Virus record (IMG/VR): IMGVR_UViG_3300042860_001262
Span: 1 to 28,623 of that record
DNA from: a virus
Strand: one strand, 5' to 3'
DNA length: 28,623 nucleotides
Shown: piece by piece, positions 12,185-15,032 of the stretch
How positions within the stretch are numbered: position 1 is the first letter of the stretch
Layout: the number at the start of each line of letters is the position of its first letter
Made by a program: the position numbers and the translations under genes
The notes under the pieces: model-generated
What the model was told of the DNA's origin: nothing
Seen by the model: the letters and a program-made list of their open reading frames with translations, nothing else
Databases searched by the model: none

Positions 12185-12850
12185 ATGGCGGCAAAAGATA
12201 AGCGCGGGAAGGTGAGAGATGGTTTGTATGGCGGGTCAGAGGATCGGTTAAAGAATCCTTTTGAAGAGGATGACCAGATCGTGTTGGCGATGAATAGTGT
12301 GGCGGTCAGTGTGATGAAGAGAAAGCGTGAGGCGGATAAGGTTTGGGGATTAGATCGTTTGGCGGAACTGGTAAGCGAGGAAACGCGATTAAGGTTTTGG
12401 AAGCAGCTATGGCGGTGTAGGGATGCGCGGAAAGCGAGAGACGTTGAGGCGTATAGGTTAGCTTGTGGCGGGATGATGCGAGCGTATGACGTGTTGGAGG
12501 CTGAAGCGAAAGCGATGAACGCTGAACCGTTGGCGGTAAGTGTTATGGAGGGTCAACGGGATGACGGGAGCGTGTTTGCGATTTGCGCTGATACGGCAAC
12601 TGTCCACGCCTACGCGGCAATGAGACCTGAATGCGACTGCTGGACGATGGACGAAGTGGCGGTTATCTTGCAGCAGGAGTTTTTCACGCAAGCGGTGAAC
12701 ATCAAACGGGTGATGCCAGGTGCTGAAGTGTTGACGTTGATGGAGGAGCAGGATATTGGTCCGGTGTACAAGGGACATAGTGAGCAGGCTTACGCGTTGA
12801 GCAAGGACGCGTTGGCGGCGATGGAAAGTCAGTCAAAACGAAAGGCTTGA
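12185..12850 (+). CDS. Conserved phage hypothetical protein downstream of the primase-helicase
   Basis: This 221-aa protein starts at ATG 12185 with AAAGGA 8 bases upstream. It has a basic N-terminus, then a helical segment (KVWGLDRLAELVSEETRLRFWKQLWRCRDARKARD) and a central AYDVLEAEAKAMNAEPL, followed by an alpha/beta C-terminal half with WTMDEVAVILQQEFF and MPGAEVLTLMEEQDIG. The order 'W-G-x-D-R-L-x-x-L-V-S-x-E-T ... ALExEA ... HT/AYA ... TxDEVA' reminds me of a family often found beside phage primase-helicases; no function is established. Codon use (more GGT, GCG, AGG; GAG) differs somewhat from genes to the left. It is the last + strand gene before the non-coding, minus-strand island. Confidence 0.75.
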   Translation: MAAKDKRGKVRDGLYGGSEDRLKNPFEEDDQIVLAMNSVAVSVMKRKREADKVWGLDRLAELVSEETRLRFWKQLWRCRDARKARDVEAYRLACGGMMRAYDVLEAEAKAMNAEPLAVSVMEGQRDDGSVFAICADTATVHAYAAMRPECDCWTMDEVAVILQQEFFTQAVNIKRVMPGAEVLTLMEEQDIGPVYKGHSEQAYALSKDALAAMESQSKRKA

Positions 12851-12946
12851 ATCGTTTGGCGGAAAGCTCCCGGTTTTTGCATGTTTTTGGCTACGGGAAT
12901 ATATGGGGTGTGCCTGATGCAAGCGATGAAGCGGTGATCGGTCAGT

Positions 12947-13014
12947 GAGAACGATTCACGATTGCGAGCGATTCTGGTTAGCGAATGATTCGCTAAGGCG
13001 AGCGATTCTCGACC
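12947..13014 (+). repeat. Four 17-bp iterons with a central palindrome
   Basis: Four units begin exactly 17 bases apart at 12947, 12964, 12981 and 12998. Their first 11-12 bases are GAGAACGATTCA, GCGAGCGATTCT, GCGAATGATTCG and GCGAGCGATTCT; the second and fourth are identical over 12 bases. The third unit lies in a perfect inverted repeat TTAGCGAA-TGA-TTCGCTAA (12978-12996). Regular spacing of about one and a half helical turns with a palindrome resembles iteron origins or repressor operators. The binding protein is unknown. Confidence 0.6.
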
Positions 13015-13275
13015 ATGATCGAACGATGCAAAGCTTGATCGGCGCTCTGGCGTAGCCATAGGCGCGCGGAAAGCGCCCTTGTAGGCGATTAAATAGCATC
13101 ATGGCTATCACCCTACATGCTTTCGAGAAAATCGATTGTCGGTGATTCTATGGGCTTATCCTCCAAAGCGTTAAGGCGAGCGCATGCAAGCGCCAAGCGT
13201 AAAGCTTAGGCGTCAATGGGCGCTGTACGCTAAAGCGCAAGGCGTCAATAGGCGCTCTACGTGGAGCGTAGGCGC

Positions 13276-13301
13276 GCGAAAAAAAAGCCCCGAAGGGCTT
13301 T
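13276..13301 (-). terminator. Intrinsic terminator for the minus-strand operon
   Basis: Read leftward, AAAGCCC (13301-13295) pairs with GGGCTTT (13290-13284) around a TTCG tetraloop and continues into a run of eight T residues in total (13286-13279 region, ending near 13279). It lies 30 bases beyond the stop of the 25-aa peptide. On the + strand the same hairpin lacks a proper T run, so termination is mainly leftward. Confidence 0.82.
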
Positions 13302-13330
13302 GATTAAGTTTTCATGCTTTCATGCTGGCG

Positions 13331-13408
13331 TTAAAGGTTAAAGAAAATCGCGCACGCAAGTGCGACGCCGAAAATAACGGCGATTGTCCAATCGATTAGG
13401 CTTTGCAT
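13331..13408 (-). CDS. 25-residue single-span membrane peptide
   Basis: On the minus strand a perfect GGAGG precedes ATG 13408 by 8 bases and opens a 25-codon frame that stops at 13331. The peptide starts MQSLIDW, continues with a hydrophobic stretch TIAVIFGVALACAIFF and ends NL. Except for Asp6 it is uncharged, so it should insert as one transmembrane helix. The start lies 3 bases beyond the stop of the Cys-rich gene, and a terminator follows 30 bases later, so the two are one transcription unit. It is too short for family assignment. Roles could include membrane disturbance, an antiholin-like or toxin-like activity, or inhibition of a host membrane protein. Confidence 0.62.
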   Translation of the reverse strand: MQSLIDWTIAVIFGVALACAIFFNL

Positions 13409-13411
13409 GGT

Positions 13412-14143
13412 TTAAACCTCCGCAAATTGTTTTGCTGATTTTCCGTGGACGACAATGGCGATCGATGCTGCGCTTGGTTTTAAAGCGCCGTCACATGCTC
13501 CGCATGTGATGCATTGTTTTTTGTCGCCTCCCTCGGGGCTTGCTGGGCAAATTGCTTCGTTTTGAAGCTTGAGCGCCGATCCGATCGGAATAACGCGAAA
13601 GGTCCGCCAACCCATTGCGCGAGCGATGTCGCGATCGCTGATGCTATCGGCGCTTGCCATGCACAATTCGCGATGAGCTTGGGCGAATGGTTCGCGCCAT
13701 TGGTGGGTGTATCCCGTCCAATCGCTGGCAAGCTCAAGCAAATCGAGCCAATTTTCGGCCGGGATCATGGCGGGGTCGCCATAGGCGCCAAGCCTAATTT
13801 TTCGACCCTTGAGCCAAAGCGCTGCAAACTTTACGTTATGTGAAAAATCAGGGTATGAGCCACGCTCGAAAGCTTTAAAAACTGCGTTAACGCTTTTGGA
13901 GTAATCAACGTAGCATGTGCGCTTTTGGCTTTCATTGCCACGATGCACACAATCGCCACAAATGCTTTTATCATTGCCAGTATTAACGGCGGTTATAGGA
14001 TTAACGTCCGATCTGATGATATAAGTTTGGACCATGTTCCCGGTTTTGACATTGCTAGACTCAAAAACCGCGATCCCGACAATGGGCGCTTGATCGATTG
14101 GCGAGAATCCGCGATAAAAAACAAATCCGTTTGGCTTGCGCAT
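13412..14143 (-). CDS. Cys-rich conserved phage protein, function unknown
   Basis: This 243-aa protein starts at ATG 14143, with GGAG eight bases upstream on the minus strand; an in-frame start at 14236 lacks such a site. The N-terminus MRKPNGFVFYRGFSPIDQAP leads to a segment resembling a beta domain, then CGDCVHRG ... RTCYVD (two close Cys clusters, about residues 62-79), a helical centre with WLDLLELASDWTGYTHQWR, and a second Cys cluster near the C-terminus (CPASPEGG, CITCGACDGA) before SIAIVVHG. The Cys pairs probably bind zinc or an Fe-S cluster. I recognise the general pattern from other phage and plasmid proteins but know no function. It is the only sizeable gene on the minus strand. 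Confidence 0.78.
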   Translation of the reverse strand: MRKPNGFVFYRGFSPIDQAPIVGIAVFESSNVKTGNMVQTYIIRSDVNPITAVNTGNDKSICGDCVHRGNESQKRTCYVDYSKSVNAVFKAFERGSYPDFSHNVKFAALWLKGRKIRLGAYGDPAMIPAENWLDLLELASDWTGYTHQWREPFAQAHRELCMASADSISDRDIARAMGWRTFRVIPIGSALKLQNEAICPASPEGGDKKQCITCGACDGALKPSAASIAIVVHGKSAKQFAEV

Positions 14144-14249
14144 GATATTTACTCCGTTTTGATTGATTGCGACAAGCAAAACAATAGCATGGGCTTGCAT
14201 TGATCGATTGACCGTTAGTCGGAAAATTTCAACCATTGAAGGGTTTTAT
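14144..14249. promoter_or_regulatory. Divergent intergenic region between the Cys-rich gene and terS
   Basis: These 106 bases separate two divergent genes and must hold promoters in both directions, unless transcription of terS comes from far upstream. I find no clear -35/-10 pair on either strand. The region contains TCGATTGACCGT (14204-14215), whose exact inverted copy is found beyond terS at 14742-14753. Confidence 0.4.
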
Positions 14250-14666
14250 ATGGCGGGGCAACCACAAAAGCGCGCAGCGCTTGCGGTTATTGAGAAAGTA
14301 GGCGAGGAGGAGATTCTTGAGCGAATAAGCGCTGGCGAAAGCGTGCGAGCCATTGCTGAGAGCATTGGAGTAAAGCAAGGGCATTTGAATAGGTGGCTCC
14401 TCGCTCCGGAGCGCAGCGCTCAGTACGCACGCGCACGCGAGGAGCGCGCCTCGGCGCTGGCAGAGGAGGCGCTGACGATCGCCGACGAGGCGAAGGACGA
14501 TCCTAGACTGCGCGTTGATACGCGCAAATGGTTTGCTGCGCGCCTTGATCCGCGATCATGGGCGGAGAATCGCGCGCCAGTCGTGGCGATCAACATAGAC
14601 TCGCAAGCATGGACGGCGATTAAGCAAGCTGAATCGCTGACAATTGATGCAGTGCAGCATGATTGA
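14250..14666 (+). CDS. terS: Terminase small subunit
   Basis: This 138-aa protein starts at ATG 14250 behind GAAGGG; the longer frame starting at 14163 has no ribosome site. The N-terminal half is a helix-turn-helix (EEEILERISAGESVRAIAESIGVKQGHLNRWLL, about 20-55), the middle is a charged helix (RAREERASALAEEALTIADEA), and KDDPRLRVDTRKWFAARLDPRSWAEN matches the oligomerisation region of Sf6-like small terminases (RVDTRKW...LxPxxY/W). It recognises the packaging start and loads DNA onto the large terminase. Unusually, a recombinase gene and 366 non-coding bases separate it from terL. A general DNA-binding regulator is the less likely alternative. Confidence 0.82.
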   Translation: MAGQPQKRAALAVIEKVGEEEILERISAGESVRAIAESIGVKQGHLNRWLLAPERSAQYARAREERASALAEEALTIADEAKDDPRLRVDTRKWFAARLDPRSWAENRAPVVAINIDSQAWTAIKQAESLTIDAVQHD

Positions 14667-14705: not shown

Positions 14706-14752
14706 CCAAAGGCGCAAAAGCTGACAATCTAGCGGGTTTCGACGGTCAATCG

Positions 14753-14815
14753 AGAATCATTCGCGCCCTCGATTGACTTGAAATTAAGAATCATTCGCAT
14801 TTGATAATCGTTTTG
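14753..14815 (-). repeat. AGAATCATTCGC repeats, related to the 17-bp iterons
   Basis: AGAATCATTCGC is present at 14753-14764 and 14787-14798, 34 (two times 17) bases apart, with a degraded copy ATAATCGTTTTG at 14804, 17 bases further. Its reverse complement GCGAATGATTCT matches 11 of 12 bases of the unit at 12981 and 10 of 12 of those at 12964 and 12998. This looks like the same binding element as in the 12947-13014 array, in opposite orientation. Confidence 0.5.
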
Positions 14816-14833: not shown

Positions 14834-14929
14834 GGGCGGGGCGGCTTTGCCGCGGTGCTCCACACGCGCCAACTTATGCTTCGCATACCTGGCCGCGCTA
14901 ATCGCATACCTGGCCGCGCCAACCCGCCC
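14834..14929 (+). ncRNA. Candidate structured element with 21-bp tandem duplication
   Basis: GGGCGGG (14834-14840) can pair with CCCGCCC (14923-14929), enclosing hairpins GCGGC-TTT-GCCGC (14841-14853) and TATGC-TTC-GCATA (around 14876-14888). A 21-base unit starting TCGCATACCTGGCCGCGC is present twice in a row (14881-14901 and 14902-14922, one difference). This could be a structured RNA, or DNA-level structure in a packaging or recombination site. Only fold potential is seen. Confidence 0.3.
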
Positions 14930-14993: not shown

Positions 14994-15016
14994 TGTTACG
15001 CTTGCAACAAGTAACA
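14994..15016. promoter_or_regulatory. Inverted repeat just upstream of the recombinase gene
   Basis: TGTTA-CG-CTTG-CAA-CAAG-TAACA forms nine base pairs of inverted repeat with a 2-base interruption on one side. It ends 16 bases before the recombinase ATG, next to its GGGGAA ribosome site. It could be an operator for self-regulation or half of a recombination site. Confidence 0.4.
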
Positions 15017-15032
15017 AACACAGGGGAACGAG

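Follow-up and report, generated by a model that had tools for sequence, protein, structure and literature searches.

The window analysed here is the complete IMG/VR record of a freshwater phage, 28,623 bases long, and carries RuvC and exonuclease genes, a RepA-like helicase-primase gene (9894), a gene with no assigned function (gene 12185; 12185-12850, plus strand), a phrog_2554 gene (gene 13412; 13412-14236, minus strand), the gene for an Sf6-like terminase small subunit (TerS; 14250-14666), a small serine recombinase gene (15033), terL (15700), and the portal, scaffold, and major head genes. A terminator-like hairpin whose best T-run is on the minus strand (13284-13301) lies between the convergent genes 12185 and 13412. 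A tRNA scan gave no match.

The non-coding DNA between these two convergent genes also holds array 1 (12947-13010), which consists of four plus-strand units at an exact 17-bp pitch: unit 1, GAGAACGATTCAC (12947-12959), the first unit kept in nearly all array-bearing relatives; unit 2, GCGAGCGATTCTG (12964-12976); unit 3, GCGAATGATTCGC (12981-12993); and unit 4, GCGAGCGATTCTC (12998-13010). Over 11-mers (GAGAACGATTC in unit 1, GCGAGCGATTC in units 2 and 4, and GCGAATGATTC in unit 3) 40 of 44 letters agreed, the top value at a 17-bp pitch across the whole window, while the maximum reached in 300 dinucleotide shuffles of the intergenic DNA and 20 of the whole window was 33. The location and the four units from 12947 that a preliminary description had reported were thereby confirmed, and no phased repeat elsewhere in the window surpasses them. 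The sequence GCGA.CGATTC that it had described as shared is exact in units 2 and 4 but not in units 1 and 3; the family consensus is GMGARYGATTC, which in itself forms a partial dyad (GAA-NNN-TTC). The perfect palindrome it had placed over the third unit, TTAGCGAA-TGA-TTCGCTAA (12978-12996), is real, has unit 3 as its core, and is the unit dyad of array 1 in its fully formed state. Perfect palindromes of that size are not rare by themselves, the window having 11 and each shuffle 1 to 6. A promoter scan of 12500-14400 found nothing at array 1.

A unit scan of the window revealed the same motif on the opposite strand between terS and the serine recombinase gene (array 2, 14750-14815). Neither this second array nor a host regulator (Fur) site as the nearest match had been part of the preliminary description. 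Array 2 begins about 85 bp past terS, upstream of the recombinase gene, with no clear promoter by eye, and in the relatives it comprises four phased positions, of which A and C are strong and B and D weak. Site A (GCGAATGATTCTC on the minus strand, 14752-14764) sits within a 10-bp perfect inverted repeat (14745-14754/14768-14777). Site B (CTCGATTGACTYG, 14769-14781, minus strand) keeps the 17-bp phase and is conserved in sequence, with a poor match to the motif. Site C is GCGAATGATTCTT on the minus strand (14786-14798), and site D (GATAATCGTTTTG as written on the plus strand, 14803-14815, assigned to the minus strand) is weak, phased, and nearly invariant where array 2 is present. Two further elements were seen in the same gap. 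The hairpins TATGCTTCGCATA / TGTGCTTCGCACA (14876-14888), located past array 2 and before the recombinase gene, show a compensatory change between relatives and vary in copy number. Just upstream of the recombinase gene, the inverted repeat GTTACGCTTGCAACAAGTAAC (about 14997-15017) is conserved, largely retained even in L033 and L035, and possibly a site for the recombinase.

The relatives were drawn from 79 viral loci with the 13412 gene, about 34 of which, on partial contigs, have the shared neighbourhood; phages of one group are not independent samples. A search of these genomes for the 17-bp period showed its phase to be conserved in most relatives and the arrays to be lost from some near-identical ones. 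Both arrays were kept in the freshwater relatives. The position and phase of array 1, and likewise those of array 2, were kept in most lineages, for the 12185 protein down to a group with 72% identity, and overall they persisted in relatives whose flanking-gene proteins were down to about 72-86% identical. Unit 3 was the most changeable: in L013/L020/L034 another palindrome, TCAAGCA-TGA-TGCTTGA, which differs by four paired changes, keeps the phase, and in L024-L031 the unit has no palindrome. In one distant relative, MW202879, array-type sites were absent from the two stretches examined.

The segment carrying array 1 (12907-13033) was missing or replaced in L014, L019, L022, and L027/L055, with flanks about 80-93% identical. 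In L014/L019 array 1 alone was missing, while in L022, L027/L055, and L033 array 2 was cleanly missing and array 1 either had other sequence in its place or survived as a relic. The losses fell on separate branches of the tree of the 13412 gene. Three of the four lineages without array 1 also had no array 2, and array 2 was present in every array 1 lineage with a readable terS-recombinase gap. The array-less phages G006 and G009 retained 12185, TerS, the recombinase, 13412, and the helicase-primase at 94-99% identity (93-99% over the relatives that had lost both arrays), and no gene was lost together with the arrays in them, barring contig ends and the structural gene 57, unmatched in G006. 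TerS occurs as two alleles (about 46% identical to each other, as against 88-99% otherwise) that are swapped among otherwise 95%-identical phages. As judged from these comparisons, the two arrays are a linked, accessory pair, since near-identical relatives have lost one or both and yet retain the candidate phage DNA-binding genes.

At the place of array 1, phages L014/L019/L022 have an intact frame of about 67 amino acids (...LPVFACFWLREIGKSRDLLKVPKGLAVCERVDPNRSKAYEMALRLHWRIGAAIGARKAPL) that overlaps the stop of gene 12185. In the array-bearing phages the two ends of this small ORF survive as relics at 12849-12910 and about 13040-13080, on either side of array 1. A pseudoknot-like reading of the T-rich stretch 12862-12907 was considered and rejected, the stretch being the start of the small ORF according to L022/L019.

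We then scanned viral contigs for two units at a 17-bp pitch and found many unrelated phages with longer arrays in non-coding DNA, such as GCGAGCGATTCGCATTT four times (L140), GCGAATGATTCACAAAT four times (L163), and GAGAATGATTCTCAAAT five times (L141). Control scans of viral contigs gave 2 matches for the reversed motif, 7 for a 16-bp spacing, and 54, mostly in coding DNA, for an 18-bp spacing. Pairs in which both units reached a score of at least 8 numbered 22 at 17 bp, with the window's own group excluded, versus 6 at 18 bp and 1 at 16 bp. The motif has the consensus ATGAGAATCATTCTCAT and is clustered in T5-like terminal repeats, in Vequinta- and Stephanstirm-type phages, and, at a 17-bp pitch, in small environmental phages. 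An idealised array matched 887 records of named phages when weak E values were included and 97 at E <= 0.01; most of the rows inspected were T5-like, Vequinta-, or Stephanstirm-type phages. A slightly different query matched 14 plasmid records, mostly weakly. A strict tandem pattern, too stringent to tell much about Fur sites generally, matched 1 bacterial locus when 84,980 species genomes were scanned, along with 3 loci in viruses. In scans of whole records with ATGMGAATSATTCKCAT, most matches fell in one gene-free cluster per genome, and the reversed control gave 0. The T5-like clusters inspected lie close to the right-hand end of the terminal repeat in those records that annotate it, and several T5/V5-type clusters sit between convergent genes. 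In the part of the literature that was searched, no report of such clusters of Fur boxes in phages or in T5 terminal repeats was found.

These scans also yielded several observations on neighbouring sequences. The T5-like phages L165, L168, and L173 have many copies of GTGCAAATCCGAC beside the Fur-like cluster, and L165 additionally has DnaA-box-like words (TGTGGATAA) and a LexA-like palindrome, TACTGTATATTTATACAGTA; DnaA-box-like and LexA-box-like words were likewise seen by eye in the cluster region of T5_ev219. In L141 and L135, the gene at terL or immediately ahead of it encodes a GSIPFGY or GIVPFGY stretch, like the recombinase domain adjoining terS, and recalls the order terS-recombinase-terL of the window. 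Marine virus contigs (L126, L130, and their relatives) carry a two-unit version, GAGAATGATTCCTATTTGAGAATGATTCTCATTT, which in L130 precedes a small gene by about 100 bp and could, by its position, be an operator.

A matrix built solely from T5/V5-type phage sites was run blind on E. coli K-12, the test set being five stretches (218.5 kb) selected for Fur-controlled genes rather than the whole genome. Eight intergenic regions in this set, 1.1% of its sequence, we take from established knowledge to be Fur controlled. They received 11 of the 20 top matches, compared with 0 to 2 for 30 column-permuted matrices, and the fecI, fhuA, and fepB-entC intergenic regions occupied ranks 1 to 3. In the 28.6-kb window, the same matrix ranked site C first, with a score of 19.5, and site A third, with 10.5; a score of at least 18 is expected by chance at fewer than 1 in 3 million positions. 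In most relatives the arrays came first, the top two to four matches per locus being mostly array members with scores up to 27.7, the value of the site C counterpart in L020, ATGCGAATGATTCTCAT. The units of array 1 in the window, in which the outer AT flanks are missing, scored only 4.7-5.6, and unit 1 of L006/L007, ATGCGAATGATTCTCGA, scored 19.5.

In the opposite direction, a matrix made from freshwater array 2 alone had a consensus identical to ATGAGAATCATTCTCAT and placed 7 of its 20 top matches in the Fur regions (permuted, 0 to 1). The matrix from array 1 alone, with the core GAGAATCATTCTC and different flanks, placed 2 of 20 there: fecI, ranked second, and fhuA, ranked third (permuted, 0 to 1). 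With the E. coli Fur regions as the reference, array 2 thus matched the Fur-site consensus better than chance in both matrix directions. On the E. coli scale, which may differ from the Fur motif of the window phage's own host, array 2 is convincingly Fur-box-like in its sequence, and array 1 more weakly so by its own sequence, its likeness coming through kinship and linkage to array 2.

Several other explanations were weighed against these data. Operators for a phage-encoded regulator of the recombinase, terL, or lysogeny, as the repressor operator of the preliminary description would be, seem unlikely. Dyad units at a regular pitch, an array upstream of the recombinase gene, and DNA-binding candidates encoded in the window (the 17111 product, TerS, and the recombinase) would suit such a role, but the candidates persist in array-less relatives, no promoter is evident at array 1, no CI-like repressor was recognised among the genes of the window or the extra ones of the relatives G005/G006, and the presence of the motif in unrelated phages would call for an unrecognised common protein. 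Somewhat less likely still is a packaging initiation site (pac or cos) bound by the terminase small subunit. The closeness of array 2 to terS, the distance of 0.4-1.1 kb between arrays and terS in three unrelated phages (L141, L135, and L144), and the position of the T5-type clusters in the terminal repeat speak for it; the motif is, however, common to phages with different TerS families (phrog_1482, 2538, and 3802) and matches E. coli Fur promoters, which is unexpected for a TerS site, and the TerS alleles are not linked to array presence, the TerS of the array-less L022 being 99% identical. We regard as quite improbable a replication origin with iterons for a phage initiator, for instance the product of gene 12185 beside the RepA-like helicase-primase. 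Tandem iteron-like units at a constant pitch directly downstream of the replication genes, with array 1 following gene 12185, are what such an origin would look like, but L022 and L027/L055 have neither array (L033 largely neither) and yet keep the replication genes, the helicase-primase and 12185 of L022 and L027/L055 being 94-95% identical. The same motif also occurs in phages that have neither gene, the AlphaFold model of the 12185 product (mean pLDDT 69) had no PDB match at E <= 0.001, and a GC skew search for an origin revealed no switch.

The accessory status of the arrays argues against an essential origin, a packaging site, and an obligate phage-encoded partner or repressor operator. 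It was on the same ground, the retention of 12185, TerS, 13412, the recombinase, and the helicase-primase in relatives without both arrays, that the second origin and the partition site of the preliminary description found no support. Structured RNA or a cruciform at the 3' ends of transcripts from the convergent genes is very improbable. In its favour, the unit 3 palindrome was swapped for another with paired changes in L013/L020, and a 10-bp perfect inverted repeat surrounds site A, but folding of both arrays was not significant on either strand (z-scores, -0.7 to -1.9), an Rfam scan gave no match, and the palindrome was lost in L024-L031. Finally, a chance or compositional repeat of the G+C-rich, GCGAT-rich intergenic DNA has a negligible probability; the region is indeed rich in GGCG and GCGAT words, but shuffles never reached the array phasing, a matrix from unrelated phages recovered the arrays, and conservation of phase and position down to the most diverged flanking proteins refutes it. 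The general idea of an ordered array of protein sites, already put forward in the preliminary description, is well supported by the conserved 17-bp phase, the dyad units, the second array, and the missing RNA-fold signal.

We give a probability of about one-half to the reading that the arrays are tandem Fur-box-type operators for a host repressor of the Fur family, which they probably titrate. Since the phages are unrelated and no regulator common to them was recognised, the simplest candidate for the binder is a Fur-family repressor of the host. The candidate phage binders are kept in close phages without the arrays, and therefore a host protein and an accessory role are indicated. Binding by the host Fur protein, and every functional step described next, we infer. 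One dimer of the metal-sensing repressor, supplied by the host, would sit on each dyad of 13-17 bp (GMGAAY-S-RTTCKC, best form ATGAGAATCATTCTCAT), and the dimers would stand side by side every 17 bp. As the phage DNA multiplies, it would soak up the repressor, and host iron uptake would be de-repressed. Titration, the most likely use, is favoured over promoter control because of the convergent or gene-free placement, and the dispensability of the arrays favours it too. Array 2 might additionally serve as an operator or roadblock for the downstream recombinase-terL genes. Some points sit less easily with host Fur sites and their titration. The units of array 1 score low in the window, and the replacement palindrome of unit 3 is not Fur-like. 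A genome with four to eight sites may offer too few of them to titrate a repressor that is abundant. Titration alone also does not explain why arrays often lie near terS/terL, or why the T5 clusters lie at the terminal-repeat end; such positions leave room for a role in packaging or injection.

A wider reading, which we put forward tentatively and consider rather doubtful, is that clusters of host Fur boxes were acquired independently by many phages that infect Gram-negative bacteria and are unrelated to one another, the replicating phage DNA acting as a sponge or sensor for the iron regulator. That it might take in phages as different as the small podovirus-like ones of the environment, T5, and the Vequinta type, with the T5 cluster on the first-entering DNA and iron status tied to infection, is equally tentative. 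If host Fur sites are indeed what the arrays provide, they would be a phage device made of DNA only, which acts on the global iron regulator of the host with no need for an encoded protein and links phage replication to iron uptake, and they would account for long gene-free repeat regions left unannotated in records of T5-like and Vequinta-type phages.

Among known systems, the E. coli Fur boxes (fecI, fhuA, fepB-entC, cirA, and fiu) resemble the phage sites in being 13-17 bp dyads with the core GAGAAT-S-ATTCTC and flanking AT, and their promoters are recovered by matrices from phage sites. They overlap promoters, often singly or in the form of overlapping hexamers, whereas in the phages the sites follow one another at 17 bp, often off promoters, and array 1 differs from them in its missing AT flanks. 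The terminal-repeat clusters of T5-like phages (phiR201, My1, and T5_ev219) are like the arrays in that the palindrome ATGMGAATSATTCKCAT is grouped in one gene-free stretch, but their spacings are 17-46 bp, often 29 or 35, and there is no adjoining terS; they are annotated as a repeat region only, or not at all. The lambda origin and plasmid iterons consist of about four tandem units by the replication genes, bound by a self-encoded initiator, and are essential; array 1 shares this layout, but here the arrays were lost while the replication genes were retained. In the Fur titration assay, multicopy DNA with Fur sites reportedly titrates Fur and de-represses a Fur-controlled reporter. This assay, credited to Stojiljkovic et al. 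(1994) in a passage of PMC10219339, is a laboratory plasmid assay rather than a phage function, but its mechanism is the same as the one that we propose here for the arrays.
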